Source of the DNA: Lachnospiraceae bacterium
GTDB lineage: Bacteria > Bacillota > Clostridia > Lachnospirales > Lachnospiraceae
Assembly: GCA_017438775.1 (NCBI GenBank)
Contig: JAFRUR010000036.1
Coordinates: forward strand, 1-64,000
Direction of reading: 5' to 3'
Length of the DNA: 64,000 bases
Positions 1 through 20,115 of the stretch are shown piece by piece. The notes below the pieces were generated by a model. That model was not told the origin of the DNA and made no database searches. It saw only the letters and a program-made list of their open reading frames with translations. Position 1 is the stretch's first letter. Each line of letters starts with the position of its first letter. The position numbers and the translations under genes are program-made.

Positions 1-136
1 CAGAGGTTTGCCTGCAGCTTCTTTCAGATTTCACCTCGCGATGAACACCCTTGCTGTTCAGCTATACACTTCCCACTACCTGGGCGTGTTCGGGACTTTC
101 ACCCGTTAGAGCGCGCCCATGGCGCGCATACAACAC
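1..136 (-). mobile_element. Group II intron, 5' part only (continues off the left edge)
   Basis: Read on the minus strand, this stretch carries the run GGGTGAAAGTCCCGAAC at about 93-109, followed by GTAGTGGGAAGTGTATAGC and GAGGTGAAATCTGA. From memory these belong to the 5' domain I of bacterial group II introns. The GTG at about 136-134 is a plausible 5' splice boundary because it follows the TTT of a hairpin on the same strand. The reverse transcriptase/maturase would lie left of the window and is not visible. The exact boundary is uncertain because the hairpin arms may extend into the first intron bases. Confidence 0.7.
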
Positions 137-175
137 AAAGGACGGATCCTCCTTCCGAGAAGTCCGTCCTTTGTG
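134..175 (-). terminator. Hairpin terminator of the first polysaccharide operon
   Basis: A perfect 13-base inverted repeat (134-146 with 163-175) encloses a 16-base loop, about 80 bases after the stop of the FGGY kinase gene. On the minus strand the stem ends in CCTTTGTGTTG, so the T-run is short. It is likely the intrinsic terminator of the operon and also the landing site of the adjoining group II intron. Confidence 0.65.
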
Positions 176-254
176 ATGGCCTGCTATTCTTTCCCGAACC
201 CTTTCCGGGAATACGTCGGGGATTTATTACGTTCTGTCCGCGGTCCGGCCCTCC

Positions 255-1802
255 TTACTCCTCCAGTCCCTTCTGGTATGCGTACAGCGCATCGAAGGTG
301 CCCCTGCTCAGGTCGCGGTAGCAGCGGTCCCAGATCTCGTAGACCGGCCTGTAGGACTCGTGGATATCCGCGTTCGGGGTGTAGTGCGTAAGCACGCGGG
401 TCATGTTCTCCGACGCCTCGCGGTAGCTCCCGTACAGGCCGGACGCCACGGCGCAGATGATGGCCGCGCCCAAGGTCGTGGCCTCCTTCGCGGTGATGGT
501 CTCCACCGGGATGCCGTAGATATCGGCCTGCATCTGGTTCCAGAAACTGTTGTTGGACGCCCCGCCGATGACGCGCAGGCTCTTGGCCTCGGGAAGGCCG
601 CCCTCCTGCAGGGTCTCCAGCATCATGCGGTTTTCAAAGCAGATGCCTTCCATGGTGGCGCGGCAGAGATCGTTCCGGTCGCTTCCCAGGGACATGCCGA
701 TGTAGGCGCCGCGGGCCGCGTCGTCATAGTTCGGGCAGGCCGCTCCCTGCAGATACGGCAGGAAGAGGACGCCGTGCGCGCCGGCCGGAGCCGACATCGC
801 CGCGGACGTCATCAGCTTGTGGTCGCCCGGATCCTGCGGGTACAGGATGTTTTCGGCCCACCGGTACGAGGACATGCAGGACGAGGAATGCGTCTCCATC
901 AGGTACCCGCCCGCGGGATGGCCCTGGATCTGGCACAGCCCCTTCGGGTGCCGCACCGGCACCGGGGAGTAGGCGATGACCAGACCGGCCGTGCCCATGC
1001 AGATGGACATGATGTCGGACGTGCCGTAGTTGCCCGCGCCCAGGGCGCCGCAGTTCTGGTCGCCGGAGCCCGCATAGATGGGCGTGCCCGCGAGCAGGCC
1101 GCAGCGGTGCGAAGCCTCTTCGGAGACGGTGCCGATCATCGTGCCGGGATCGACCGCGACCGGGAACTTGCCCGCGTCAAAATCAAAGATCCGGCACAGC
1201 TCGGGATCGAACTTCTGCGTATCGGGATCGGCGAGGAGCCAGAAGCTCAGGTTGTTGTTCTCCTCCCGGTATTCCTCCACGCCGAAGGCGCGCGTCAGGA
1301 TGGCCTGCGGAGTCACGAACTTATACGTTTTCCGGTAGATGTCCTCCCGCAGATGACGGAACCAGAGCGCCTTGAAGCCGAACTGGAACGACCCGAAGGG
1401 CTGGCCGGTCATCCGGTAGAAATCCTCCTGGGTGAGGCCGTTTGCCGCGAGCCTCTCCCGGATCCACGGGTGGACCTGCTCTCCGCGCTGGTCCTGCCAG
1501 AGGACCATGTTGGACAGGAAGGTCCCGTCCTCGGCCACCGGAACGAAGCTGTTGCGCTGGACCGTCACGCAGAGTCCGATGATTTCCCGCGGATCCACCT
1601 GCGCCACCGCGTCCGCGACGGCGCGGAACGTCAGGTCGATCACCGTGCTGGGATCCTGCTCGGCCAGGCCGGAACTCGGGTAAAAGGTCTTCATGGGATA
1701 ATATCCGCCGGAGACGATGGTGCCGTAGGCATCCATGATGCAGCACCGCGTGCCCGTGGTGCCCGCGTCCACCGCGGCGATCAGTTTACGCTTCGTCTCC
1801 AT
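255..1802 (-). CDS. FGGY-family carbohydrate kinase
   Basis: The 515-residue product has the usual FGGY length and both halves of the fold. An N-terminal phosphate-binding motif DAGTTGTR is at residues 12-19, and the C-terminal ATP-site segment GGASNNSFWNQMQAD is near residue 410. Family members phosphorylate sugars or polyols such as xylulose, ribulose, glycerol or erythritol; the substrate cannot be read from the sequence. The ATG overlaps the end of the upstream IspD-like gene by 17 bases and has GAGGGAAG in front of it, so the two are translationally coupled. Sitting last in a locus with an ABC importer, an IspD-like protein and LicD genes, it probably makes the phosphorylated alcohol used for nucleotide activation. 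A purely catabolic role is possible but fits the context less well. Confidence 0.9.
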   Translation of the reverse strand: METKRKLIAAVDAGTTGTRCCIMDAYGTIVSGGYYPMKTFYPSSGLAEQDPSTVIDLTFRAVADAVAQVDPREIIGLCVTVQRNSFVPVAEDGTFLSNMVLWQDQRGEQVHPWIRERLAANGLTQEDFYRMTGQPFGSFQFGFKALWFRHLREDIYRKTYKFVTPQAILTRAFGVEEYREENNNLSFWLLADPDTQKFDPELCRIFDFDAGKFPVAVDPGTMIGTVSEEASHRCGLLAGTPIYAGSGDQNCGALGAGNYGTSDIMSICMGTAGLVIAYSPVPVRHPKGLCQIQGHPAGGYLMETHSSSCMSSYRWAENILYPQDPGDHKLMTSAAMSAPAGAHGVLFLPYLQGAACPNYDDAARGAYIGMSLGSDRNDLCRATMEGICFENRMMLETLQEGGLPEAKSLRVIGGASNNSFWNQMQADIYGIPVETITAKEATTLGAAIICAVASGLYGSYREASENMTRVLTHYTPNADIHESYRPVYEIWDRCYRDLSRGTFDALYAYQKGLEE

Positions 1803-2526
1803 CCGCTTCCCTCTGTTTCTTCTGTTTCATCATCACAAAGGCTTCAAACAGCTCAAGATCCTCTTTTTTGGTGATCTTGATGTTCATCTGGCTGCCCGGG
1901 GACAGGTAGATCGGAATGTTCATGTGGAACATCAGGGTGGTGGTGTAGGGCTTGACCTTCTCGATCAGACCCGTGGCCACCGCCTCCCGGTACAGGTCGC
2001 GGATGAGCCCGTAGCGCACGGAGTGCGGGTTTTTCAGGCACACGATGGAATCCCGGTCGAACCAGGTGTCCGTCATGTCCGGGTGCTCTTCGCTCTTCAT
2101 GCCGGCCAGGGAGTACAGCGGGTACGAGGTGATCGCGTTCCCCTTCTCGCGGGCCACCCGCAGGTTTTCCGTCAGGAAATCCGGATTCAGGAAGGGGGCC
2201 ACGCCCGTGTGGATCGTCACGATGTCGTCGTCCGCGCAGATGCCGGAGAGCCCCTCCACGCCGCAGCGCACGGACTCCGAGAAGGAGGCGCCGCCCTCCA
2301 CGACCCATTTGACCTTGGTCAGGCCGAATTTGCGGCAGATCTCCCACATCGTATCGATGTAGCCCCTGACGCAGACGATCTCGACCGCGTCGATCTCCGG
2401 ATGCTGCTGGAAGATGTCCAGCGTGTACGCGATGACCGGCTTTCCCAGCACCTCCGCAAACTGCTTCGGCACGGGGAGACCGGCACGGATGCCCTTTCCT
2501 CCCGCGAGGATGATGGCGATGTTCAT
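1786..2526 (-). CDS. Divergent IspD/TarI-like nucleotidyltransferase
   Basis: The 246-residue product starts MNIAIILAGGKG and has the nucleotide loop GGKGIRAGLPVPKQF at about residues 8-22. It keeps the C-terminal NIKITKKEDL segment that supplies a substrate-binding lysine in IspD and TarI. The mid-protein motif is HTGVAPF where IspD/TarI enzymes usually have HDxxRPF, so the conserved Asp and Arg are both replaced. It may use an unusual substrate or metal arrangement. The ATG at 2526 is chosen because GAGGAAAG lies just upstream; an in-frame extension to 2604 has no homology-like content. Its overlap with the FGGY kinase suggests it activates the kinase product with CTP. Confidence 0.8.
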   Translation of the reverse strand: MNIAIILAGGKGIRAGLPVPKQFAEVLGKPVIAYTLDIFQQHPEIDAVEIVCVRGYIDTMWEICRKFGLTKVKWVVEGGASFSESVRCGVEGLSGICADDDIVTIHTGVAPFLNPDFLTENLRVAREKGNAITSYPLYSLAGMKSEEHPDMTDTWFDRDSIVCLKNPHSVRYGLIRDLYREAVATGLIEKVKPYTTTLMFHMNIPIYLSPGSQMNIKITKKEDLELFEAFVMMKQKKQREADGDEA

Positions 2527-2619
2527 ATGGCTTTCCTCAGTTTTTTCCTTCCGACGGCACGGCAGGGAAGCGGATTTGCCCGCTCCCCTGCGCGCCGAAA
2601 TCATTCACGAATCTGACGG

Positions 2620-3633
2620 TCAGGGATTCTCCTTGACCACTTCCCTGGCAAGATCGTCGACGATGAAGTCCCTCACGTTGATCTCGTTCTTGATAGCCTC
2701 GATGCCCATCAGGAACGAAACGGTGTCCTGAAGGCTCTCCGTCACGCTGTCTGTAAACTCCAGCGTATAGATGCACTTGGAGCTGGCTTCCTTGAGCAGG
2801 GCCTCGTCCAGGTTGAACACCTCTCCGATCTTGGCCGTATAGTCCTCGGGCTTCTCCTTGAAGGCCTTGGTCGCCTTCCAGTACTGGGCGAGGAACACCT
2901 TCACGATGTCGGGATTGCTGTCCACGAACTCCTTGCGGGCGAACACGATGTTCACGCCGCCGAAACCGACCGCATCGCCGGCGATCAGGTTCTTGACACC
3001 GTCGACCGCATCGATGCGGCTGACGTTGGGCTCCCAGACCACGACCGCGTCCACGTTGCGGTTGATCAGGACCGTCTGCGCCTCACCCATGGAGACGTTG
3101 ACCGCCTCGATGTCCTTGCCGAAATCAAGGCCGCCGCTCGCCAGGGCCTTTTGCAGCATGTTCTGTCCCGTGGAGCCGATCACGACACCGACTTTCTTTC
3201 CCTTGAGATCCGCGACGCTGTTGATTCCGGAATCTTCGAGGACCAGAATCGCAGTGAAGGAGCCGCCCTCTTCCGCGGCGATGTAGACATTCTTCTGTCC
3301 GTTCGCCACCGCGGTCACGGCCGGGACGTCGCCGATCACGCCGATGTCCTGCTGCCCCGCCACAAAGGATTCATTCATGGGCGGGCCGGATTCGAAATCC
3401 GTCCAGACGACGTCGACGCCGATCTCCTTCATCGCCTCGTCCATCCATCCGGTCTGCCGGGCGATGTAGAGCGGGATAAAGGCGCAGGAAGGCTGGATGG
3501 CGATGCGGATCGACCGCTTCTCGGTGCCGCCGGAGGCCGTTGTGCCGGGCGCGTTTCCGCCGCCGCAGGCCGCGAGACAGCCGGCCGTCAGGACCAGAGC
3601 CAGGATCAGAGCCAGAACTTTTGTTTTCTTCAT
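2620..3633 (-). CDS. NitT/TauT-type ABC substrate-binding lipoprotein
   Basis: This 337-residue protein begins with a lipoprotein signal peptide; the likely lipobox is LAAC with Cys23, followed by a Gly-rich linker. The mature part resembles NMT1/SsuA/TauA binding proteins, with IRIAIQPSCAFIPLYIARQTGW followed by GVIGDVPAVTAVANG. Such proteins bind sulfonates, nitrate, pyrimidine precursors or similar small molecules; the ligand here is unknown. The permease and ATPase genes lie directly upstream. The 129 bases between the ATPase stop and this start contain a good RBS (GAGGAGAG) but no promoter I can recognise. Its place inside a capsule-type locus is unusual and suggests import of a glycan decoration precursor. 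Confidence 0.9.
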   Translation of the reverse strand: MKKTKVLALILALVLTAGCLAACGGGNAPGTTASGGTEKRSIRIAIQPSCAFIPLYIARQTGWMDEAMKEIGVDVVWTDFESGPPMNESFVAGQQDIGVIGDVPAVTAVANGQKNVYIAAEEGGSFTAILVLEDSGINSVADLKGKKVGVVIGSTGQNMLQKALASGGLDFGKDIEAVNVSMGEAQTVLINRNVDAVVVWEPNVSRIDAVDGVKNLIAGDAVGFGGVNIVFARKEFVDSNPDIVKVFLAQYWKATKAFKEKPEDYTAKIGEVFNLDEALLKEASSKCIYTLEFTDSVTESLQDTVSFLMGIEAIKNEINVRDFIVDDLAREVVKENP

Positions 3634-3762
3634 TGTATTCTCTCCTCTTCTTTAGAGTGTGAAACCCTGTGTGATGCCGCGTGAAAGATTCGAAGTCCCC
3701 GCTGATTCTGCGCCGCAGGGGAGCCCCTTTCCCGCCGCGGACGCACGGGCCGAAATCCCGCT

Positions 3763-4512
3763 TTACTGCTGCACGAAGAAGCAGTCGTAGACCTGCCGGC
3801 GGACCTCCAGGAAGGCCTCGCTGTTGCGGTCGCGCGGGAAGGGCAGCGTGTTGACCACGATCTCCTTCACCTTGCCGGGGTTCTTGGACATGACCAGAAT
3901 CTTGTCCGAGAGATAGACCGCCTCGTCGATATCGTGCGTGACGAAGATGACCGTCATTCTGCTCTTCTCGCGGATGCGCAGAAGTTCGTTCTGCATGTTG
4001 ATCTTGGTCATGTAGTCCAGTGCGCCGAACGGCTCGTCCATGAAAAGGACCTGGGGCCGGTTGACCAGCGCGCGGGCGATGGAGACGCGCTGCGCCATGC
4101 CGCCCGAAAGTTCGCGGGGCAGGGCCTTTTTGAAATCCGACAGGCCGACCAGCGAGACGTACTCGTCCACCAGCTTGTTCTTCTCTTCCCGGGACATGCC
4201 CTGAAGCGGGAAAGCGACGTTATTGCTCACATTCATCCACTCCAGAAGTCTCGCCTCCTGGAACACCACGCCGCGGGCCTTGTCCGGGCCCTTGACCTCG
4301 GAACCCCCGATCGTGACCGTGCCCTCGTGCACCGGATCGATTCCGGCCATGATGCGCAGCAGGGTGCTCTTGCCGCAGCCGCTCTGGCCGACGATGCAGA
4401 GGAATTCGCCCTGTTCCATGGTGAAGCTGACGTCCTGGATGGCCGTCACCGTGTTTTCGCCCACGAACGTCCTGCTGACGTTATTCACAACGATGTATTC
4501 TTCCGCCATCAT
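3763..4512 (-). CDS. NitT/TauT-type ABC transporter ATP-binding protein
   Basis: The 249-residue ATPase has Walker A GQSGCGKST at residues 42-50, a Q-loop GVVFQEARLLEW, signature LSGGM, Walker B VLFMDEP and the switch histidine in FVTHDIDEA. These match the SsuB/TauB/NrtD group that energises the neighbouring permease. The start ATG at 4512 overlaps the permease stop in an ATGA, so the two are coupled. An in-frame extension upstream would run through the permease gene in another frame and is not credible. Confidence 0.93.
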   Translation of the reverse strand: MMAEEYIVVNNVSRTFVGENTVTAIQDVSFTMEQGEFLCIVGQSGCGKSTLLRIMAGIDPVHEGTVTIGGSEVKGPDKARGVVFQEARLLEWMNVSNNVAFPLQGMSREEKNKLVDEYVSLVGLSDFKKALPRELSGGMAQRVSIARALVNRPQVLFMDEPFGALDYMTKINMQNELLRIREKSRMTVIFVTHDIDEAVYLSDKILVMSKNPGKVKEIVVNTLPFPRDRNSEAFLEVRRQVYDCFFVQQ

Positions 4513-5270
4513 TTCCACCTGATCACTCTCTTTTCGACTGCCATCAGGATGCTGTCCATGATCTTTCCAATGATTCCGATCATCAGCATACCCACGATGA
4601 CGACGTCCGTCTGGCCGAACTGACGGGCGTACATGATCATGTAGCCCAGACCCGTGGAGGAGGCGACCAGCTCGGCCGCGACCACGCACATCCAGCACTG
4701 TCCGAGCCCGACGCGCAGGCCCGTGAAGATGTTCGGAAGGGCGTACGGGATGACCACCCGGAACACGTACTTCAGCTTCGGGACGACCATGGCGTTGGAC
4801 AGTTCCACCAGCTTCGGGTCGATGCGGCGGATGCCGTCCACGACGTTCACCAGGATGGTGAAGAAGCCGCCGATGAAGATCAGAAAGATCTTCCCCTCTT
4901 CCCCGATGCCGAACCACAGGATGACCAGCGGGATCCAGGAGATGGGAGGGATGGGCTTCAAGATCTGGACGATCAGGTCAGTCAGCTTCTTAAAGTGCTT
5001 CGAAAGGCCCATCAGGACGCCCAGAACGACAGCCGACACGGCCGCGATCGCATAGCCCGACAGCACGCGCCGGGAGCTGATCAGGAGATTCTGCTGCAGC
5101 GTTCCTTTTTTGATGAGCGAAAGAAAGGTATCGACGATGGTCGCGGGCGAGGGAAGCGTCAGGGGATTGATGATCCCCGCGTTGGAAGCGATCTGCCAGA
5201 AGGCGATGATCAGGGCCAGCAGCCCCACATATTCCAGCCCGCCCAGAAGTTTTTTGCCGCTTTTTTTCAT
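4509..5270 (-). CDS. NitT/TauT-type ABC transporter permease
   Basis: The 253-residue membrane protein has about six hydrophobic segments and the inner-membrane EAA-like loop near LVELSNAMVVPKLKYVFRVV, followed by the assembly segment IPYALPNIFTGLRVGLG. It matches SsuC/TauC-type permeases in length and pattern. It lies 12 bases after the first of three LicD genes and overlaps the ATPase start. The trio permease-ATPase-binding protein is complete, so this looks like a working importer placed inside a polysaccharide operon. Confidence 0.92.
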   Translation of the reverse strand: MKKSGKKLLGGLEYVGLLALIIAFWQIASNAGIINPLTLPSPATIVDTFLSLIKKGTLQQNLLISSRRVLSGYAIAAVSAVVLGVLMGLSKHFKKLTDLIVQILKPIPPISWIPLVILWFGIGEEGKIFLIFIGGFFTILVNVVDGIRRIDPKLVELSNAMVVPKLKYVFRVVIPYALPNIFTGLRVGLGQCWMCVVAAELVASSTGLGYMIMYARQFGQTDVVIVGMLMIGIIGKIMDSILMAVEKRVIRWK

Positions 5271-5282
5271 AGATTTCGGTCC

Positions 5283-6134
5283 TTACTCTGCGCAGTAGCT
5301 CTTTCCCTTGTATTCCGTGTACGGTCTGTCGGTACTCACAGTCACAAATCTTGCCACCTTCTCGGCCTGGACGTCCGGGATCGGCACTTCCGTATAATCT
5401 CCGTAGCGGAGCGTCAGCCACTCCTTCCAGCCGCAGGGGATCCTGACCTGCATGTCCTCAAACTCCCAGGGGAGCGCCTCGGCAAACCACGCGCGGGAGA
5501 GCACAAGGCGGATCGAACGGCTGCCCGCGAGGACAAAGCAGTCCCTGGTGTCCGCATTCTCATACGCCGTCAGCTTGGCGAGAAGTTCGTCCCGGGTCCG
5601 CACCTTCTTGTGATCCGAAGACGCGAGCAGGATCGAGGAAATGATCTTGAGGGGCAGTTCCTCGGACGAGAGCGGCTCATCCTCCGCCATGGCCTTGTAC
5701 AGCTTCGCGTTGTGGATCTGGCGGCGGCGGTCCTCCGGGTCGTCGGAGAGCCGGATGATGGGCATGATGTTCATGTAGATCCCGTGGTGGATATCCAGAT
5801 TCGCGTCCTCGACCTTGATGAGCGTGGTCCGGCTGTCCCGCAGCCTCGCGTAGATGCGGTTGTACTTCGGATCCGTCTTGTGGGTCTGCAGGAACAGATC
5901 CTCTCCCCACGTCTCCTTCGGGAGCGCGAGCAGCTTCATGTAATCCGGGTACGGCATCACCACGTCGATGGAATCGTCCCAGGGAAGGATCTTATGGCCG
6001 CGCACCGCGCCGATGAGGGAGCCAAAGGCCAGGAACCATGTGAGCTTCTGCTCCTCGCAGACCTGCATGAGTTTGGCGAGAAGGTTCTTTTGGACTTGGT
6101 GGAGTCCGTCGAGGTTGTAATTGATCGTTTCCAT
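5283..6134 (-). CDS. LicD-family phosphotransferase with altered active-site motif
   Basis: LicD proteins are nucleotidyltransferase-fold enzymes that move phosphocholine or polyol phosphate from a CDP-activated donor to a glycan. This one is about 283 residues and has the family opening FGSLIGAVR then PWDDSIDVVM near residues 37-60. The other LicD copies here have WDDDxD; this copy has Ser in the third acidic position. The protein may be inactive, use a different metal arrangement or act on another substrate. The start at 6134 is the first ATG; a TTG 15 bases upstream is an alternative. Confidence 0.85.
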   Translation of the reverse strand: METINYNLDGLHQVQKNLLAKLMQVCEEQKLTWFLAFGSLIGAVRGHKILPWDDSIDVVMPYPDYMKLLALPKETWGEDLFLQTHKTDPKYNRIYARLRDSRTTLIKVEDANLDIHHGIYMNIMPIIRLSDDPEDRRRQIHNAKLYKAMAEDEPLSSEELPLKIISSILLASSDHKKVRTRDELLAKLTAYENADTRDCFVLAGSRSIRLVLSRAWFAEALPWEFEDMQVRIPCGWKEWLTLRYGDYTEVPIPDVQAEKVARFVTVSTDRPYTEYKGKSYCAE

Positions 6135-6182
6135 AGTAGTTTCTTTCAATTCCTCTCCGGGAATGAACTGTTCCGGGATGCT

Positions 6183-7103
6183 TCAGTCAACTTTGTTCGA
6201 TTTTCTGTCCTCGATCACCTGTTTGTACGACCGATCGACGTCAAAAATGAGTTCGCCCATCTTGCCGTGTGTGGTCACGATCCGCTTCGGCACAAGATAA
6301 TCCTCTCCGTACCGTACGGCCAGAACGCGGTCATAGTTGCCCGGTACGGGAAAAACGCCGTCCTCGAACGGGATATATTGAACCGTCGAAAACCATTCCT
6401 TTTTATACCTGTAGATCGTGGCGCCCTTGCGGCGGAACATCAGATTTTCCACCTCGTCCGCATCCACACTGCGGAATATATTTTCCCAAGCCCGATACAC
6501 GCCCGCCGTATCGCCGTATCTGGCCGCAAGGTATCTCTTGCGAATCCGCTGCGCGATGCTGCGAGGAGACAAGCCACGAATCTCCCGCTCGATGGCGACC
6601 ATGTCCCGTTTGCACTGCTGGGAACGGGCAATCTGGCTCTCGACCCTGCTGTCGTCGATTCCGTCCAGAACGAAGATATCGATAAAGATCCCCTGATTGA
6701 AAGGCACGACGTCGATCTCCGTGGGGCGGGCAGCACAGGTTTCGCTGTTTCTCAGCTGCGAGTGCCCGCGCGCATACCGACGATCCGTATACCCCGTCTG
6801 CAGAAAAAACGGATGCTCGAAACAGGCAGGTCCCTGACTGACCAGGATATCATAGTCTTTGCGGAGCATCATCACATCGACGTCGTCGTCCCAAGGGATA
6901 AAGTGCCCGTCTCTGACCGCGCCGATCAAAGAACCGTTTGACAGACAGTACTGCACGCCAAGTTCTCTGCAGACACGGTCAAGTTCGTAGAGCAGATCCA
7001 GTTCGACAGCCCAGACCTCTTTTTTCCACCTCTTGATATAGAAGCCGTATCGCTCCTCTTCCCGAAAGAAGTCGGAATCAAATACGTGTTTTGTTTTTAC
7101 CAT
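6183..7103 (-). CDS. LicD-family phosphotransferase
   Basis: The product is about 306 residues with the intact LicD motif SNGSLIGAVR followed by FIPWDDDVDVMM, near residues 50-75. The C-terminal half keeps the usual LicD pattern ending YGEDYLVPK. It probably transfers a phosphorylated alcohol from a CDP donor to a repeat-unit sugar on the cytoplasmic side. It is the middle of three consecutive LicD genes and differs from both in sequence, so the three probably have separate acceptors or linkage positions. The ATG at 7103 is preferred over the GTG directly before it. Confidence 0.88.
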   Translation of the reverse strand: MVKTKHVFDSDFFREEERYGFYIKRWKKEVWAVELDLLYELDRVCRELGVQYCLSNGSLIGAVRDGHFIPWDDDVDVMMLRKDYDILVSQGPACFEHPFFLQTGYTDRRYARGHSQLRNSETCAARPTEIDVVPFNQGIFIDIFVLDGIDDSRVESQIARSQQCKRDMVAIEREIRGLSPRSIAQRIRKRYLAARYGDTAGVYRAWENIFRSVDADEVENLMFRRKGATIYRYKKEWFSTVQYIPFEDGVFPVPGNYDRVLAVRYGEDYLVPKRIVTTHGKMGELIFDVDRSYKQVIEDRKSNKVD

Positions 7104-7129
7104 CACGCATCCTCAAAACGCATCGCCGC

Positions 7130-8062
7130 TCAGATCTGATCAGCCAAAGAGCACTGATACGCCTCTCCAAGGGACCCGGGAATCGGATCGATGCAGAACA
7201 CCTGACCGTTTCCAAGGTCGGCAAAAATGAAGTTGATGTGAAACCGGTCTTTCTCCGGAGGAAACTGCATATAGGTATCGCCGTAGGCGACCTTCAGAAA
7301 CTGCTCGTAATTCTTCGGGACCGGAATCTCCATATCTTCGAAGCGGCAGGACTGCAGGGGAAAGACGTCCGTACGGGCGAAGTACATATCCGCGTGGTTG
7401 GAGTAATACGAACCGATCCGCGAACCCGCACGGCCGCCCCGAATGGCTTCCAGCTGTTCCCTGTACAGTTTCTTCCAGGGTTCCTTGGAAATCAGTCCAA
7501 CCGTTTTCCGATAGGCCTCTTTTCCGATATTCTTGACAAGCCGTTTTGCCGGGACGTTTTTCAAATTTGAGGGGAGCTTTGCGGCTTTATACCACTTTTT
7601 GCTTTTATGTACGACCTTCCGTATCCGGAGATACTCTTCCTGGTCATCCGGAATGGCGTCAAACACGTAAAGATCGATCATGAGCGACGTCGACCACGGC
7701 CGCTTCGAAACCGGATCGATCCAGTCCCGCACGTCGCGGTAGCTCTGGATCCGCGTGTTTTTCAGGTACACGCGCGGAAAGATCTTGTCATGTCTGGGGT
7801 CGGGATCATCCGGCATCACGAGTTCCACATCGTCTCCCCATGCCTCCTTCGGAAGCGCTGCCAGCCGGTCAAGATCCTCCCGGAGAATGCCGATGTCCAG
7901 ATCGTCGTCCCAGGGAATGTAGCCGTTATGCCGGATCGCTCCGAGCAGGGTCCCGGCAAAAGCAAAATACAAAGCGCCGCTTTTCCTGCACGCTTCGTCA
8001 AAACCGTGAAGCAGACGAAGTCCCGACAACTGAATTTCCCTGATGATCTCTCTGTCAACCAT
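7130..8062 (-). CDS. LicD-family phosphotransferase
   Basis: The 310-residue protein has the canonical LicD block AGTLLGAIRHNGYIPWDDDLDIGI near residues 37-60 and a C-terminal YGDTYMQFPPE segment typical of the family. It belongs to the LicD run between the flippase and the ABC importer. ATG at 8062 is chosen; the longer frame begins with a TTG two codons earlier. All acidic residues expected for catalysis are present, in contrast to the LicD at 5283-6134. Confidence 0.9.
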   Translation of the reverse strand: MVDREIIREIQLSGLRLLHGFDEACRKSGALYFAFAGTLLGAIRHNGYIPWDDDLDIGILREDLDRLAALPKEAWGDDVELVMPDDPDPRHDKIFPRVYLKNTRIQSYRDVRDWIDPVSKRPWSTSLMIDLYVFDAIPDDQEEYLRIRKVVHKSKKWYKAAKLPSNLKNVPAKRLVKNIGKEAYRKTVGLISKEPWKKLYREQLEAIRGGRAGSRIGSYYSNHADMYFARTDVFPLQSCRFEDMEIPVPKNYEQFLKVAYGDTYMQFPPEKDRFHINFIFADLGNGQVFCIDPIPGSLGEAYQCSLADQI

Positions 8063-8114
8063 GATCAAAAACGCCTCCGGGCCGCGGCAGCGGGCGCTGC
8101 CATCGGTCTTCCGA

Positions 8115-9575
8115 CTAAAACACTTTCTTCAAAACTTTCCGGACAAGTCCCCAGGCCATGTGGACCAGTTCGGTCATCATCTTATCCCTGAGCGCCAGCA
8201 GGACCAGACCGTAGCACGCGGCTCCGGCGATCACCTGCAGAATGATCAGGGACACGCCGTGCAGCGGAACCGCGGCACCGATCCACCAGATCAAAAGAAG
8301 CATCAGAACGCCTGCGGTGATTTTACGGTAAGAGATCGCCCACAGCTGCCCCCACCTGATATACCCGCCGCTCATCTGCACGTACAGAACGGCGATCGTG
8401 AGCTCCGCGATGACGGAAGCGACGGTCGCTCCGTAAGCCAGAAACCGCGGGATCAGGAGCAGGTTGAAGCACAGATTGATGCACGCTCCCAAAACGATCA
8501 CTTTCGCACTCCGCTTCCGCTGGCCGCTCGGCGTGAAATACTGGCTGCCGAGGCAGTTGCTTGTACCGATGATCAGAATCAAAGGGACCATGCAGTAAAG
8601 CAGAGGCACCACGGGATCATATCCCTCGCCGAAAAACAGCGGAACGAAGCGGGAGGCGATTCCCACGATTCCGAAGATCGCACCGTAGGCAAGGAGATAT
8701 ATAAAATCCATCGACCTCGCGATTCGTCTTCGGATCTCATCGTACTTCTCTTCCGCAAAGAGATATGAAATCCTTGCTCCCATCACCGAATTGACCGCCA
8801 CGAAAACGACCGATTTTACGATCTTGATGATCTTTGTCGCCTGTTCGTAGTATCCGTTCTGATAAGAGCTCCCGGTGATCGCCCCGATGAGTGTCTTGTC
8901 CAGGACAGTGTAGATCGAAGTGGCAATGGTGGGGATGAAGTAGATCAGCGTCTCATGAAGATGATGTCTGAAATGCAGTCCCCTAAAGTCCACTTTTGTC
9001 AGCATCCCGGGAAGGTACAGCCACATGGACAGGTTCCCCAGGAGCATCGTCATGGAATTGATCACGCAGTAAAGGATGAGGTCATCCTTCTTTTTCACAA
9101 GAAGGAATAAAAGAACAATGCCCAGGATCTTGACCGCGGAGTTTCGAACGACGATGTTTCTGACTTTTTCCAGCCCCGTGAAGTACCACGAGATATCGAA
9201 CATTGTGCTCAGAAGAAACGGCGTCAGCGCGAGGAAATACCACCTGTAGCGGGCAAAAACGATAATAACGCCGATCCACACCGCCAGGCAGGCGCCGGAG
9301 GTCATGACGGTCAGGAGCTCGATCTCCCAGAACAGCTTGCTTGAGCGCTCCCTGTCGTCCCGTGCCCGCGCGATCTCCCGCGCACCGTATCCGGCGGTCC
9401 CGAGGGCGCCAAACAGCATGAAATACGTGATGATCGAATGTGTATAACTGTAGATTCCGACACCGTCAGCCTTTAAGATTCTGGATACGTAAGGCGTTGT
9501 AATAAACGGTGTGATCAGCACCAGCAGTTCATAAAAAACCCGGAACAGATAATTTTTCTTGAGGCTCGGCTGCAT
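8115..9575 (-). CDS. Wzx-type polysaccharide flippase
   Basis: The 486-residue product is hydrophobic throughout with about 12-14 membrane segments. It shows the oligosaccharide flippase hallmarks PFITTPYVSRILKADGVG near the N-terminus and GYGAREIARAR in the first cytoplasmic loop. It should flip the undecaprenyl-linked repeat unit across the membrane. The start ATG lies three bases after the polymerase stop with GAAGGTGG as RBS. Together with the neighbouring polymerase it defines this locus as Wzx/Wzy-dependent. Confidence 0.92.
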   Translation of the reverse strand: MQPSLKKNYLFRVFYELLVLITPFITTPYVSRILKADGVGIYSYTHSIITYFMLFGALGTAGYGAREIARARDDRERSSKLFWEIELLTVMTSGACLAVWIGVIIVFARYRWYFLALTPFLLSTMFDISWYFTGLEKVRNIVVRNSAVKILGIVLLFLLVKKKDDLILYCVINSMTMLLGNLSMWLYLPGMLTKVDFRGLHFRHHLHETLIYFIPTIATSIYTVLDKTLIGAITGSSYQNGYYEQATKIIKIVKSVVFVAVNSVMGARISYLFAEEKYDEIRRRIARSMDFIYLLAYGAIFGIVGIASRFVPLFFGEGYDPVVPLLYCMVPLILIIGTSNCLGSQYFTPSGQRKRSAKVIVLGACINLCFNLLLIPRFLAYGATVASVIAELTIAVLYVQMSGGYIRWGQLWAISYRKITAGVLMLLLIWWIGAAVPLHGVSLIILQVIAGAACYGLVLLALRDKMMTELVHMAWGLVRKVLKKVF

Positions 9576-9577
9576 TT

Positions 9578-10840
9578 CTAGACCACCTTCGCCCATCGGA
9601 CATGCGCGCTGTCTCCCTGTCCCGCATACGCCGCAGCCAGAAGAAAAATATACGGAATCGAGAATGCGGAGTTGGAAATCAGAAGATTAAATACCAACAC
9701 GGCAATGACCAGGAACCAGACGCTCCTGTTGGTGCGGAAATACTGGCTTTTGTACGAAACCGCGGCAGCTCCGACATAGATCGACAGCAGCCAGAGTCCG
9801 CCGTAACTCATCAGAACAGTCAGCCCCATGCTCAGGCCCCGGTTGCTTCTGGAAACATTCTGAAAATCGATGATCGCCTGTGAATTGTTGTAGCCTGCGC
9901 CAAACAGTGGATGCTGCAGGAAGGCTTTCAGTCCCGCGATAAAGTCATCCATCCGCACCATGCCGGACGTGGTCAGCATTTTTTCGCCGATCAGGGCGCT
10001 GCTGACAAACGCGATTCCGGCGATGGCAACAGAGGCAGCCACGATCTTGACCACAGCGGCGGACCTGTTTCGGCTCCCCTTCGAGACATAGTTGATGGCG
10101 ATCGCAATCATGACAACGATGATGCCTTTCGTAGAACTGGTCGAAAGAAGAGTGACAACAAAAATGACAATGCTGATAATGGCCTTGCGCTGCTTATCCT
10201 TCGTGTCCGCAAACTTCCGGGTCACCATTTCGATCAGCAGAGCGTAAGTCAGGAACCCGGAATAGCCGGGAGCCTCCGCGAAAATACCCACATTGCAGAG
10301 AGTGCTGTGCACGTTGTTCTGCACAGGGTTTTCAAAATACATATAGAAATACGTATACGTCGTCCGGTAGTGGTCCGCCCAGTAATACACCAGCTCTCTT
10401 CTGCCCGGCAGGATATCCAGAACCGAACCGAACAGCCAGAAAAAGAGACTGACGACGGCGAGAATCAGCATGACTCTCGAATACACGGTCAGGAATTCCT
10501 GCATCAATCCCTTTCGGTACAGAACGCAGGAAAACAGAAACAGGCAGACAAACACACCGACAAAGGATGTCAGGAATCTGTTCGTGTTGTAGCGGGTCAC
10601 AAGCGCATAGACCAGGAAAGCCGCCACGATCACCACGAGCCGAATCAGTTGACCCTGCCTGATGCTCAGAGACCCAGCGGTGACCAGAAAAAGAAGGCAG
10701 AGAATCCCCATCAGCCAACCAAAACCGCGGCCATACAGCGGTGTATTTGTCAGGTATCTGTACATGGTCGACGAGTCCAGCAGAACCACGACGACGATCA
10801 GATACATGATGGCTTTCAGGATTCCGGTTTTTGTTTTCAT
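9578..10840 (-). CDS. Wzy-type O-antigen/capsule polymerase
   Basis: A 420-residue polytopic membrane protein with about ten or more hydrophobic segments and a large loop around residues 125-200. The segment FLQHPLFGAGYNNSQ near residue 310 is typical of the Wzy/O-antigen ligase superfamily. It should polymerise the flipped repeat units. The sequence family is very variable, so the assignment rests on topology, the GAGY-like loop and its position beside the flippase. Confidence 0.85.
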   Translation of the reverse strand: MKTKTGILKAIMYLIVVVVLLDSSTMYRYLTNTPLYGRGFGWLMGILCLLFLVTAGSLSIRQGQLIRLVVIVAAFLVYALVTRYNTNRFLTSFVGVFVCLFLFSCVLYRKGLMQEFLTVYSRVMLILAVVSLFFWLFGSVLDILPGRRELVYYWADHYRTTYTYFYMYFENPVQNNVHSTLCNVGIFAEAPGYSGFLTYALLIEMVTRKFADTKDKQRKAIISIVIFVVTLLSTSSTKGIIVVMIAIAINYVSKGSRNRSAAVVKIVAASVAIAGIAFVSSALIGEKMLTTSGMVRMDDFIAGLKAFLQHPLFGAGYNNSQAIIDFQNVSRSNRGLSMGLTVLMSYGGLWLLSIYVGAAAVSYKSQYFRTNRSVWFLVIAVLVFNLLISNSAFSIPYIFLLAAAYAGQGDSAHVRWAKVV

Positions 10841-10904
10841 TCGATCGTTACCATATGTCAGACCCGACTGCTCCCCCGTTCCGGAGCGGATAGCCTTTTC
10901 CTCG

Positions 10905-11975
10905 TCAGTTGATTTGAGATACTGCCTTTTTCAGGTATTCTCCGCCGCGAAGCTTTTCAGAGATTCGCGCCGCATTGGCGACCATCCGCTGATACTCTTC
11001 TTCCGTAAGATCCGTGATCCGGCCTCCGATCTCCTTCAGCGAGTTCACGGAAAGGCCGCATCCGTTCTCTGTGATGAACTCTGACAGAGCAGCTTCCTTC
11101 CAGATAATCACCGGCAGGCCGGACGCCAGATACAGCGACGCCTTGTGCGGGTTGTTGATTCGCAGATACTCTCCGCTCACCCCGGTACAGGAGTCCGCGG
11201 AATCGCCGTCCCAGACCAGACCGAAAGACGCCTCGAGCACGCCGGGCAGCTCCTCCGGAGGAAAAGCCCCGTGATACGTCACCTGCGGCATCCCCTGGTC
11301 TTCGTATCCGATGCCGTACAGCTGAAAGCTGACGTTGTCCGGGAGCCGGAGCAGATACTGGCATTTATGGGGCTTGAGCGTACCGGCGATCGCAACGTTT
11401 TTTTCCAGTTTTCTTTCCGCTCCGGAAAACGCCGGGATCAGATAGTCGAAAATATCGAGCGAGATCAGCCTGCAGTCTGCAAAGCCCGCCCCGCGCAGGG
11501 TCTCGATCATCTTCGGATTGTGAGCGATGATCGAATCCGCGCACTTGAGAACGGCGCTTTCCTCCAGTTTGATCCTTAGTTTTTTGAGAAAGCCCACGTC
11601 GCTTCTTCTGTTGTAACGAAGGAGTTCCAGGTCATGGATCAAAAGCGCAACTTTTCCGCCGCGCTTCTGTACCGCGCGGAATTCCCACGCAAGAGCGATC
11701 GGCCTGCGCAGCACCGGGAACTGGGCGAGCACTGTGTCACCCGCCTTGATTTTCCTTAACTGCGTCCGCCACTCCTTTCGAAGCGCCAGATTGTCCTTCA
11801 GCTTCCGCAGAAACCCCCTGCTGTCAAGTTCGGCCGCCTTCTCCACAAAGGTGAAATCCAGCGTCAGGGGGACCCAACCGCTCTCCTGAAGGATATCGGA
11901 TGCGTCATTCCTGGCCTTCGGACCCGCCGTGGGGTCCCCGTTGATGATCTCGCGGATAAAATAGTTCATGCTCAT
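10905..11975 (-). CDS. Galactofuranosyltransferase-like glycosyltransferase
   Basis: The 356-residue protein has a GT-B-like layout. An N-terminal half contains KVALLIHDLELLRY and CADSIIAHNPKMIE; the C-terminal half contains VSGEYLRINNPHKASLYLASGLPVI and KEAALSEFITENGCG. This pattern is that of proteins annotated as beta-1,6-galactofuranosyltransferases in Clostridia and streptococci. Sugar specificity is not provable from sequence. It lies between the polymerase and the epimerase genes and probably adds one sugar of the repeat unit. Confidence 0.8.
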   Translation of the reverse strand: MSMNYFIREIINGDPTAGPKARNDASDILQESGWVPLTLDFTFVEKAAELDSRGFLRKLKDNLALRKEWRTQLRKIKAGDTVLAQFPVLRRPIALAWEFRAVQKRGGKVALLIHDLELLRYNRRSDVGFLKKLRIKLEESAVLKCADSIIAHNPKMIETLRGAGFADCRLISLDIFDYLIPAFSGAERKLEKNVAIAGTLKPHKCQYLLRLPDNVSFQLYGIGYEDQGMPQVTYHGAFPPEELPGVLEASFGLVWDGDSADSCTGVSGEYLRINNPHKASLYLASGLPVIIWKEAALSEFITENGCGLSVNSLKEIGGRITDLTEEEYQRMVANAARISEKLRGGEYLKKAVSQIN

Positions 11976-11988
11976 ATTCCCGTGTCTG

Positions 11989-13029
11989 TCACAGATAACG
12001 CAGGGTCCGCTCTGTTCCCTCTTTCAATCCGAAAACGCCCCTCCAGCCCAGACCTTCCAGTTTTTCGGAATCCAGGACGGAATGGTTCATGGGATTATAA
12101 CTCTTCCGTTCCGTTTCGCTGGGGCATTCATACACCACCCGCACGCCGCCGGCAGCTGCCAGCGCCTCTGCGACCTCTCTGACGGAAGCGATGGAGTTCC
12201 TGTTTGAGATATTGTATGCCTCTCCGTCTTCCCCGTTGAGGAGAACTGCCAGAATGGCCGAAGCGCAGTCAAGGGTGTAGCAGTAAGAACGGCGCTGTTC
12301 CCCCGTGCTTTTCATGACGATATCTCTTCCTGCCGCCGCATCGCGCGAGAAAGAAGCGGAAGCACGTGTGTCGGAATCCGTAACGGACGGACCGTAGATA
12401 TGTCCGGGGCGCACGATCACGAAGTCGACGCCGTACTCCTGGCGGTAAGCCGCGCACAGAGTTTCCGCTGCGCGTTTTCCGTCCGGATAGCAGGCCCTTG
12501 GATTCAGGATGTCCACATAGCCGTATTCGTCTTCCCGGAAAGGGCCTTCCCGGCGGTCCGCCCGGTTTCCGTATACCTCGCTGGACGAGATAAACAGAAG
12601 GCGCGAACAGGGATTCTTCCTTGCCGCTTCCAGCATGCTTCTCAGGCCGACGATATTCCCGACCAGCGTCTCGACAGGCTCCTTTGCGTAAACAGCAGGG
12701 TTCGCATTACCTGCGCCGTGGAGAAAATAGTCCGCCCTGACGTCCGCGATCTGCGGTGCAGTAGCTTCAAAGGGCAGGAACTGATACTCCGTCTCCTTCA
12801 GGACGCCGTCAAACCTGCGGGCAGCCCGCTCGCGGCTTCGCCCCGCAAGGATCAGTCGAATCCCGGCGTGACGATGACAGTTCAGCCAGACGATCACGTC
12901 GATCACTGCAGAACAGATCATGCCTGTCCCGCCGGTGATCAGAAGCGTCTTTCCGTACAGGGTCTCAAGACGCGGGATCCTCTCTGCGGCCAGCGCGGCA
13001 TCGTCCCAGTACTCCCGATCATATTTCAT
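11989..13029 (-). CDS. NAD-dependent epimerase/dehydratase
   Basis: The 346-residue short-chain dehydrogenase-type enzyme has the NAD loop ITGGTGMICSAV near residues 31-42 and catalytic SSSEVYG plus YPDGKRAAE, with Tyr-x3-Lys in the variant form YPDGK. The C-terminal part is like UDP-glucuronate decarboxylases and CDP-sugar epimerases. It lies 10 bases after an IspD/TarI-type gene, a pairing frequent next to LicD genes, so it may act on a CDP-linked sugar or polyol. The substrate is unknown. Confidence 0.88.
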   Translation of the reverse strand: MKYDREYWDDAALAAERIPRLETLYGKTLLITGGTGMICSAVIDVIVWLNCHRHAGIRLILAGRSRERAARRFDGVLKETEYQFLPFEATAPQIADVRADYFLHGAGNANPAVYAKEPVETLVGNIVGLRSMLEAARKNPCSRLLFISSSEVYGNRADRREGPFREDEYGYVDILNPRACYPDGKRAAETLCAAYRQEYGVDFVIVRPGHIYGPSVTDSDTRASASFSRDAAAGRDIVMKSTGEQRRSYCYTLDCASAILAVLLNGEDGEAYNISNRNSIASVREVAEALAAAGGVRVVYECPSETERKSYNPMNHSVLDSEKLEGLGWRGVFGLKEGTERTLRYL

Positions 13030-13038
13030 ACAGGCGCC

Positions 13039-13752
13039 TCACTTCAGCCAGCTGTCTTTTTTCGTGTGAAGAAGGGCCTTGAAGATCAGCATATCGTCGA
13101 TCGTCGTGATTTTCAGATTCGTCTCAGACCCTTTGGAAAAATAGACCGTCTCTCCCAGTTTCTGCATCAGGGTGCAGGAAGCGGCCGTGTTGGTGATTCC
13201 CTGCTTTTCTGCCTCTTTGTGAGCCCACAGAAGTTTTCCCAACGTATAAGTATGCGGCGTCTGGGTCCGGAACAGCTGCTCGCGCGGAACAGAGATCGTG
13301 GACGTCTTTCCCTCGTCGCTGCTGCGGAAAACAGCTTCCACACAAGGAATCGCGGCGACGGCGGAACCGTGGACATGGAACGTGGCCAGAGAATCCGAAA
13401 TGATCTCGCTCGACACGAGGCACCGGTTCCCGTCGTGTACCATGACGATATCTTCCGGAGAGAGTTCGTCAGCCAGCGCAAGCAGGCCTTTTCGGATCGA
13501 TTCCTGTCCGGTCGCGCCTCCGGGAACTACCCAGCGCAGCTTTGTGATATTGAACTGACTGGCATAGGCGCGAAGCACCGCTCCCCATTCGGGAAGCGTG
13601 ACCACGATGATCGCATCGACGCTCGGATGGTTCTGAAAAGCTTCCATCGTATGGATGATCAGGGGCTTGTTCTCGACATGCATGAACTGCTTCGGAATGT
13701 CCTGTCCCATCCTGCTGCCGGTTCCGGCAGCCGTCAGTAACGCAACAACCAT
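13039..13752 (-). CDS. IspD/TarI-family cytidylyltransferase
   Basis: The 237-residue enzyme has the full family pattern: LLTAAGTGSRMGQDIPKQF at residues 5-23, VHDGNRCLV near residue 105, QTPHTYTLG near residue 156 and NLKITTIDD near the C-terminus. It should join CTP to a phosphorylated alcohol, giving a CDP-activated donor. With the neighbouring epimerase and LicD it forms a donor-synthesis-and-transfer module. It may instead be the housekeeping IspD of the MEP pathway, but its operon position argues against that. The ATG at 13752 has GGAGAGA upstream. Confidence 0.85.
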   Translation of the reverse strand: MVVALLTAAGTGSRMGQDIPKQFMHVENKPLIIHTMEAFQNHPSVDAIIVVTLPEWGAVLRAYASQFNITKLRWVVPGGATGQESIRKGLLALADELSPEDIVMVHDGNRCLVSSEIISDSLATFHVHGSAVAAIPCVEAVFRSSDEGKTSTISVPREQLFRTQTPHTYTLGKLLWAHKEAEKQGITNTAASCTLMQKLGETVYFSKGSETNLKITTIDDMLIFKALLHTKKDSWLK

Positions 13753-13815
13753 TCTCTCCACCTCACTTTTCCTCTCCGAAAGGCCGATCATTTTCCACTG
13801 AAAGGCACTGACAGT

Positions 13816-14727
13816 TCAGCTGAACAGTTTTTCCCGATCCAGCTCCATGAACACATGGTGTTCCCTCTTATCCTCCGGGGGAATCGTCATATAATCGCCG
13901 TAGAGGTTCTTCATATACGCATCGTAGTCCTTCGTGATTTTGACAGTCCGGCCTTCGAACTGCGCGTCGATGGACTCGCACATTTTCTTTCTGTCGTAGA
14001 TCTCGTCAAAATATTGCTTGCTTCCGGAAATGATAGCCATCTGCTTTGACTGATGGTTTTTGCAGAGCCGCAGCCACCACATCGAAGCCTTCATCCAGAA
14101 CGAGAGCGGAAGAATGCTCAGCACCTTGCCGATTTTCGTCCTGCGGCCGGCAATAGCCTGGAATTCTTCGTTCTCTCCCAGCAGTTTCTGAAACTCTTTT
14201 TCGTTGCGGACGAAGCGGATACAGGACAGCAGATAACGGGCACCCATGCATCCGATTCCGTGAATCTTCCTGAGAACGCGGTTCTTCGGGATGTTTTCCA
14301 TCACGAAGATGTCGACCCACAGACCGCACTCCTCCAGATCGCAGTTGAAAATGTCCCTCGCTCGGATCTCTTTGGAGATCACCCGGGGCGTCAAACGGTC
14401 ATAACCGCGGGAGATTCCCGGCGCGTGCAGCCAGTATTTGTCTCCGTACTCCTTCGGGAACACAGTGACGAACCGGTCGAAATCACGGCGCGTCATATTG
14501 ATGTCAAGGTCGTCATCCCACGGGATGTATCCCTTGTGCCGGATCGCGCCCAGCGCGCTCCCGCCGCTCATCTGCCAATTGATCCCATGCTTTTCGCAGC
14601 ACGCGATGATATCATCCAAAATCAGAAGAAGCTTCTCCTGAATCTTTTTTACGTCAGCATCTGTCGCGACTACCACAGAGCCGTTCTCAGAGCTCACACT
14701 CTTCAGAATATGTGTTAACTCCGCCAC
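13816..14727 (-). CDS. LicD-family phosphotransferase
   Basis: The 303-residue protein carries the canonical LicD block GGSALGAIRHKGYIPWDDDLDI near residues 54-75, with all acidic residues present. It lies directly beside the intact cytidylyltransferase and epimerase, and is the LicD most likely to use their CDP-activated product. It is separated by about 5.7 kb from the other three LicD genes of the locus. Confidence 0.9.
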   Translation of the reverse strand: MAELTHILKSVSSENGSVVVATDADVKKIQEKLLLILDDIIACCEKHGINWQMSGGSALGAIRHKGYIPWDDDLDINMTRRDFDRFVTVFPKEYGDKYWLHAPGISRGYDRLTPRVISKEIRARDIFNCDLEECGLWVDIFVMENIPKNRVLRKIHGIGCMGARYLLSCIRFVRNEKEFQKLLGENEEFQAIAGRRTKIGKVLSILPLSFWMKASMWWLRLCKNHQSKQMAIISGSKQYFDEIYDRKKMCESIDAQFEGRTVKITKDYDAYMKNLYGDYMTIPPEDKREHHVFMELDREKLFS

Positions 14728-14741
14728 TTCGGGCCGCCTCC

Positions 14742-15929: not shown

Positions 15930-15940
15930 GATGCTTTCCT

Positions 15941-19990: not shown

Positions 19991-20115
19991 TTCCTGTCCT
20001 GCCGTCCCCGCCTTTTCGCGGGAACACCTGCTGCCGTCTCCGATGACAGTCTGTCCAAACTCCAGGAACGATTGCCTGTATCGCTGCGATCCGCGACAGA
20101 CGAATCGCTTCTCTG

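Follow-up and report, generated by a model that had tools for sequence, protein, structure and literature searches.

The 64,000-nucleotide stretch analysed here (the window; positions 1 to 64,000 of contig JAFRUR010000036.1, assembly GCA_017438775.1, from a Lachnospiraceae bacterium) contains a chain of eight genes with which a Wzx/Wzy capsule operon on the minus strand ends. The chain is composed of three LicD genes, a sulfonate-family ABC importer with permease, ATPase and substrate-binding protein (SBP), an IspD-like cytidylyltransferase (IspDa) and an FGGY-family kinase, and its part from LicD3 to the kinase recurs in the same order in a second genome. The genomic logic of import, phosphorylation, activation with CTP and transfer by LicD is very probably that of a decoration route. 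This logic is firmer than the identity of the imported alcohol, for which the sulfonated diol 3-sulfopropane-1,2-diol (DHPS) stands at about even chances.

The genes of the chain, in order of coordinate, are:

255..1802, minus strand: FGGY-family kinase of 515 residues (PF00370 and PF02782), the proposed kinase of the imported alcohol.
1786..2526 (a longer start at 2604 is possible), minus strand: IspD-like cytidylyltransferase IspDa (PF01128), without Asp106 and Arg109.
2620..3633, minus strand: substrate-binding lipoprotein (SBP) of the SsuA/NMT1 family (PF09084; TIGR01728 SsuA_fam).
3763..4512 (start refined: 4512 or 4509), minus strand: ABC transporter ATPase (PF00005).
4509..5270, minus strand: ABC transporter permease (PF00528).
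5283..6149, minus strand: LicD3 (PF04991), the proposed phosphotransferase of the cassette.
6183..7106, minus strand: LicD2 (PF04991), capsule phosphotransferase, not in the conserved cassette.
7130..8068, minus strand: LicD1 (PF04991), capsule phosphotransferase, not in the conserved cassette.

In the pathway that we propose, the SsuA-type ABC importer would bring in a small hydroxylated sulfonate, most likely DHPS, and the FGGY kinase would phosphorylate its free primary hydroxyl. IspDa would then transfer CMP to the DHPS phosphate, forming CDP-sulfopropanediol, and LicD3 (a TagF-like transferase in other loci) would move sulfopropanediol phosphate to a repeat-unit sugar, leaving a phosphodiester-linked sulfonate on the capsule. 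These reactions and the identity of the alcohol are read from gene content, order and recurrence, from the fold and residue pattern of IspDa and from the kinship of the importer. Taken as a whole, with segment 255-6149 as a mobile decoration cassette within the capsule operon and DHPS as its substrate, the explanation is in our judgement evenly balanced between right and wrong. The role of LicD3 as phosphotransferase is proposed from its family assignment, and its donor and acceptor are predicted.

For comparison with other genomes, a profile made from an alignment of seven atypical IspD proteins was scanned against 84,980 species genomes, and the best 80 of 495 confirmed loci were analysed, their genes being greedy open reading frame (ORF) calls. 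An earlier contig scan with the single window IspD-like protein as query gave no relative. The two nearest matches among these 80 loci (L099 and L100) carry cassette genes. L099 (CAMVGD010000032.1, an uncultured Clostridia metagenome-assembled genome) encodes a LicD, a LicD3-like protein, permease, ATPase, SBP (8341-9336), IspD and FGGY, followed by a GT2 glycosyltransferase and a PF14907 protein. The order LicD3-permease-ATPase-SBP-IspDa-FGGY is identical in the window and L099, and the L099 counterparts score 372 (LicD3), 443 (permease, the transmembrane domain protein), 452 (ATPase), 432 (SBP) and 826 bits (FGGY) against those of the window. The 5 kb contig of L100 (JAILLN010000017.1, Lachnospiraceae RUI229) contains SBP, IspD, FGGY and a PF04464 CDP-glycerol-type phosphotransferase. 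Identity to window IspDa is 76% in L099 and 67% in L100, and FGGY identity to the window enzyme is 68% and 57%, respectively. The other LicD of L099 reaches at best 65 bits, against LicD1, and the four genes upstream of the L099 LicDs have no match to window reference proteins; therefore, the cassette is shared, not the locus. LicD1 and LicD2 were accordingly rejected as cassette members, being not conserved in L099.

These comparisons bear on the first-pass annotation of this DNA, which had described an unbroken chain of three LicDs, importer, IspD-like protein and FGGY kinase. ORFs and domain matches show the chain to be real, and its co-occurrence is not unique to the window genome, since L099 shows the same order and L100 a part of it. 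All three LicDs are present as described, but only LicD3 belongs to the conserved cassette. The proposed logic of import, kinase, nucleotidyltransferase and LicD acting on an alcohol other than choline is supported, because the cassette is conserved in other genomes and the IspDa class is repeatedly paired with kinases and phosphotransferases; the functions in it are put forward as probable.

Two further loci contain an IspDa-class enzyme together with an FGGY kinase. In L146 (Clostridiales RUG11065), IspDa and FGGY are accompanied by a PF04464 transferase; TarF is the NCBIfam model that this transferase matches best, with a score below the cut-off. In L139 (Solobacterium), three LicDs and an IspD are followed by a LicC-choline-kinase fusion, a second IspD of the atypical class, an FGGY from a different clade and one more LicD. 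In the FGGY tree, calculated without XylB, LyxK and the duplicate L098, the partnership with IspD arose at least twice (two changes are forced by the starred branches). The L139 region (4602-16095), with four LicDs and two atypical IspDs in all, also holds a PhnW-like aminotransferase (below the cut-off) and a cytidylyltransferase-oxidoreductase fusion.

The predicted model of window IspDa is of high quality, with a predicted local distance difference test score (pLDDT) of 94.1. It aligns with IspD bound to CTP (Z 28.9, root mean square deviation 1.9, 224 residues) and, tied with this, with TarI bound to CDP-ribitol (Z 28.2, root mean square deviation 2.1, 225 residues). The IspD/TarI fold and the CTP residues Arg20, Lys27 and Lys213 are retained in IspDa, whereas Asp106 and Arg109 are not; at the positions of E. 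coli IspD Asp106, Arg109 and Thr165, it has Thr, Ala and Asn. All three residues are kept by the second IspD of the window and by the TarI-type protein (L072). Asp106 and Arg109 are listed among the strictly conserved IspD residues in section 9 of PMC11770629.

The 80 IspD loci split into 43 lacking both D106 and R109, 35 canonical ones and two mixed ones (L152 and L153), which were kept apart. A kinase gene lies within 2.5 kb of 30 of the 43 atypical IspDs and of none of the 35 canonical ones; one of the 43 (L159) is a fragment gapped at D106/R109, and setting it aside gives 30 of 42. The Fisher p of 1e-11 for this pairing overstates independence, as the loci were picked by IspDa similarity and some are close kin. 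The kinases beside these 30 IspDs are of the choline-kinase type in 26 cases, FGGY in three and both in one. FGGY taken alone (4/43 versus 0/35) is not significant (p 0.12). R20, K27 and K213 are retained in 42 of the 43 atypical enzymes. Moreover, a short-chain dehydrogenase/reductase (SDR) like the neighbour of the second window IspD adjoins 19 of the 35 canonical and two of the 43 atypical IspDs. Because the CTP residues are kept, D106/R109 are lost and kinases are neighbours in 30 of 43 loci, the most plausible reading of the atypical class is that of an active cytidylyltransferase whose acceptor site has changed and which would act after a kinase.

Several other arrangements of IspD proteins were observed. 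The second window IspD, with canonical residues, stands beside an extended SDR and a LicD (11989-14727, minus strand). In L033, L034, L037, L040, L048, L101 and others, the atypical IspD adjoins a LicC-like domain that is fused to a choline-kinase domain or lies next to one; such fusions already carry one nucleotidyltransferase domain. In L035 (8422-10265) it adjoins a phosphonopyruvate decarboxylase (458 bits; equivalog cut-off 312.5), which hints at phosphonate activation. Atypical IspDs are also fused to UDP-galactopyranose mutase (L103, 9980-11845) and to a DJ-1/PfpI domain (L040, 9149-10423; L136, 10019-11311). A role of window IspDa in isoprenoid synthesis was rejected, given another PF01128 match at C26 and the absence of D106/R109 here.

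The SBP of the window matches TIGR01728 (SsuA_fam) with 175.7 bits, over the cut-off of 163.5. Nitrate and taurine importers were considered and rejected, as the scores are below the equivalog cut-offs. A match to this SBP at E <= 1e-40 is found in 9 of 299 family genomes, its own included. Each of the three best foreign SBPs (identity 47, 41 and 43%) is encoded together with a permease and an ATPase in a set located beside a glycyl radical enzyme and its activase. These glycyl radical enzymes score 1512.6 and 1506.8 bits with NF048009 and 1411.9 bits with NF048011 (cut-off 1000), the NCBIfam models of (2S)-3-sulfopropanediol (DHPS) dehydratase. The other foreign SBPs are an orphan pair in one genome (L203 and L207), L204 and L205, L206 and the distant L187. 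TauA, SsuA and L187 were dropped from the SBP tree because the first tree was dominated by long branches. In the resulting tree, the SBPs of the window, L099 and L100, the dehydratase-linked SBPs and L203 and L207 are split (100/100) from the SBPs linked to nitrogenase-like genes. A search at E <= 1e-50 in 287 class genomes returned only the window SBP itself and no further close relative, and at E <= 1e-15 the window, L099 and L100 genomes have one match each. Together, the gene neighbours and the SBP tree suggest that the window importer may be a DHPS importer.

DHPS resembles glycerol with one hydroxyl replaced by sulfonate, and is released in guts from plant sulfolipid. Parts of PMC11489063 and PMC12890257 describe it as a product of sulfoquinovose fermentation by gut Firmicutes, and therefore it would be at hand in such habitats. 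The search with NF048009 at E <= 0.001 gave no match in the window genome (98% complete) or the L099 genome and detected related glycyl radical enzymes in other genomes; this negative covers the NF048009 family, the HpsN and HpsOP routes of DHPS not having been searched for. The first-pass annotation had taken the alcohol to be a polyol or sugar, and had named a sulfonate used as nutrient as the result that would undo its proposal. The alcohol does appear to be other than choline, but with an SsuA-family importer whose relatives flank sulfopropanediol dehydratases, a sulfonated diol is the likelier candidate. A sulfonate thus looks right and its use as nutrient does not, the window genome having no match to the DHPS dehydratase family. 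Separately, the SsuA-type importers of L204 and L205 stand beside nitrogenase-like, radical SAM and (by eye) MetK-like genes, and probably belong to organosulfur metabolism.

The FGGY kinase of the window falls below all listed NCBIfam FGGY equivalog cut-offs. Its best model is XylB (247.9 bits; cut-off 380.25), and the glycerol kinase model gives 188 bits against a cut-off of 590. The GlpK signature, as given in part of PMC3245297, consists of Arg83, Glu84, Tyr135, Asp245 and Phe270; the window enzyme has R, N, F, D and L at these positions, keeping Arg83 and the catalytic Asp. An anionic substrate would be in keeping with the absence of the acidic Glu84. The predicted model is middling (pLDDT 74.7, 5 sequences), and structure search with it confirms the family only. 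Near relatives are few: matches occur in 3 of 299 family genomes at E <= 1e-90 and in 2 of 391 genomes of the class at 1e-110, and the L146 kinase as query finds 3 of 398 phylum genomes at 1e-95, the query's own genome included each time. A congener (G109, 86% complete) has an FGGY match of only 26%. Relatives outside the cassette (L079/L080/L081/L082, L083, L199, L197 and L198) are surrounded by varying sets of DeoC-type aldolase, Fe-dehydrogenase, transaldolase and transketolase or by other metabolic genes, and no IspD or LicD match was found in their loci. Clusters of FGGY with DeoC-type aldolase in L079, L080, L197, L198 and L199 look catabolic, with an Fe-alcohol dehydrogenase in L079, L080 (by eye), L198 and L199.

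Several observations weigh against DHPS as the alcohol. The SBP is only 40-53% identical to the DHPS-linked proteins, which is enough for a change of ligand, and DHPS binding by the latter is itself deduced from their gene neighbours. L203 and L207 lie on the same side of the tree with no dehydratase beside them. The L100 genome encodes further glycyl radical enzymes, of which the best scores 488.6 bits, short of the cut-off, and the scope of the dehydratase search given above counts on the same side. The L146 and L139 genomes have no SBP match at E <= 1e-15, and their alcohol may differ. In addition, the aldolase and Fe-alcohol dehydrogenase neighbours of FGGY relatives fit polyols or ketoses and are silent on sulfonates, and we know of no FGGY enzyme that acts on DHPS.

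The main rival to DHPS is a plain polyol (ribitol, erythritol, xylitol or related) handled by the same chain, with polyol phosphate and CDP-polyol as intermediates and LicD3 as transferase, in parallel with the human FGGY-ISPD-FKTN/FKRP route. According to parts of PMC4873967, ribitol is phosphorylated by human FGGY when supplied, the enzyme increases CDP-ribitol, and FKTN and FKRP carry LicD domains. FGGY enzymes use polyols and ketoses, TarI is the best profile alignment for IspDa and close by fold, and the FGGY-IspDa pair occurs in L146 and L139 without a sulfonate-type importer. Nevertheless, we consider a plain polyol unlikely, since D106, R109 and T165, kept in TarI-type L072 and the second window IspD, are absent from IspDa, and the importer belongs to the sulfonate family, with the DHPS-linked ones as its nearest relatives. 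It is also conceivable, though improbable, that the importer takes up sulfonates for nutrition or as a source of sulfur and sits in the capsule operon by accident, while IspDa and FGGY turn an internal metabolite into a different donor. Supplying sulfur is a common task of SsuA-family importers, and L146 and L139 manage without an importer, both of which favour this explanation. However, the importer is located between LicD3 and IspDa in the window and in L099, whose loci are otherwise different, the SBP adjoins IspDa-FGGY in L100, and the dehydratase family is unmatched in the window genome. SsuA-type importers have broad sulfonate ranges, and the substrates of the FGGY family span glycerol to hexoses (part of PMC3245297); both speak for a different ligand of the same chain, either another hydroxysulfonate such as isethionate or a sulfosugar. 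Such a ligand is quite improbable: isethionate has no second hydroxyl, and the scores of the dehydratases of the importer's relatives far exceed the equivalog cut-off for DHPS enzymes.

The proposed DHPS cassette has the defining features of none of Lic-1, the human FGGY-ISPD-FKTN/FKRP route and the phosphonyl tailoring (Pnt) system in full. It resembles Lic-1 (LicB, LicA, LicC and LicD) in the order of roles, from import through phosphorylation and CTP activation to LicD transfer, yielding a phosphodiester substituent. Unlike Lic-1, the window has a sulfonate-family ABC importer for LicB, an FGGY kinase for the choline-kinase fold and an IspD-type enzyme for LicC, and the substrate would not be choline. 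LicD is present (PF04991, three genes), and the LicC-type cytidylyltransferase is absent, with the IspD family in its place. No choline-kinase domain of the LicA type was found among the 20 window proteins scanned (the first 22 kb), and a plain choline pathway was rejected for want of such a kinase. The claim of the first-pass annotation that each Lic role is filled by an unrelated protein is too strong, as LicD is of the same family, and IspD and LicC, which both match PF12804, are distantly related within a single nucleotidyltransferase superfamily.

In line with Pnt as described in part of PMC6697681, a small acidic headgroup would be activated with a cytidylyl group before LicD-like transfer to surface glycans. 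Pnt makes its C-P compound in the cell and uses the LicC-like PntC, whereas the imported compound of the window needs a kinase. The human route, as far as parts of PMC4873967 describe it, likewise combines an FGGY kinase, an IspD-fold cytidylyltransferase and a LicD-domain transferase; it differs in that ISPD makes CDP-ribitol, while window IspDa lacks D106 and R109 and the window genes form one operon with an importer. TarI, a ribitol-5-phosphate cytidylyltransferase, is alike in fold and CTP residues, but TarI-type L072 keeps D106/R109/T165 and IspDa does not. The HpfG/HpsG loci of gut Firmicutes hold the nearest relatives of the importer and, in the account given in part of PMC11489063, degrade DHPS by a glycyl radical enzyme, a family not found in the window genome. 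The literature search returned no paper pairing dihydroxypropanesulfonate with teichoic, and none joining DHPS with capsule or LicD among the matches listed.

Three further features frame the chain:

8115-9596, minus strand: Wzx-type flippase, the first gene of the order Wzx-LicD1-LicD2-LicD3-permease-ATPase-SBP-IspD-FGGY in the direction of transcription.
105..185, minus strand: strong hairpin stretch, probable operon end (minimum free energy -44 kcal/mol, z -6.1).
1..45, minus strand: 5' portion of a group II intron that is truncated where the contig ends (RF02001, 36.9 bits; gathering score 32).

Upstream of Wzx lie genes for a Wzy-like protein, a GT4 glycosyltransferase, an extended SDR, the second IspD, a fourth LicD, a radical SAM protein, a priming sugar transferase, a PF14907 nucleotidyltransferase, an AAA_31-type ATPase and Wzz. 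The nearby Wzx, Wzy-like, Wzz, priming transferase and glycosyltransferase genes therefore identify a capsule-type locus. LicD1, LicD2 and LicD3 all exceed the PF04991 cut-off (E 1e-31 to 1e-35). The genes are closely packed: LicD3 and the permease are 12 bases apart, permease and ATPase abut, about 129 bases separate ATPase and SBP and 15 to 93 bases SBP and IspD, and the IspD-like and FGGY genes have 17 bases in common. The operon probably ends with FGGY, with the hairpin and then the group II intron downstream, although a simple terminator scan does not list the hairpin at 105-185. Group II introns often insert behind terminators. Base 1 of the window is base 1 of the contig, where the view ends. 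A further LicD gene lies far upstream (about 60372-61013, minus strand), and contig C81 of this genome carries another. A PF14907 nucleotidyltransferase-like protein is encoded in both capsule loci (window 18743-20278, minus strand; L099 12777-13943).

Tentatively, and at somewhat less than an even chance, we propose jointly that gut Clostridia build a sulfonate into their capsule, with DHPS from plant sulfolipid activated to CDP-sulfopropanediol by the FGGY kinase and an IspD-fold enzyme whose acceptor site is remodelled, and attached by LicD/TagF-like enzymes as a sulfonated counterpart of glycerol phosphate, and that the Asp106/Arg109-lacking IspD class is an exchangeable module for activation that is combined with various kinases to suit various headgroups. 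If true, this would be a new kind of capsule decoration from plant-derived sulfur compounds, in which bacteria would build a plant sulfonate from the diet into their surfaces, beyond its use as a food or sulfur source. It would also provide a first substrate for a class of IspD-like proteins whose present annotation is that of isoprenoid enzymes, and a bacterial operon in which the three families of the human dystroglycan route (FGGY, IspD fold and LicD) come together. Moreover, it would connect the chemistry of capsules and their recognition by the immune system with the cross-feeding of sulfoquinovose in guts.

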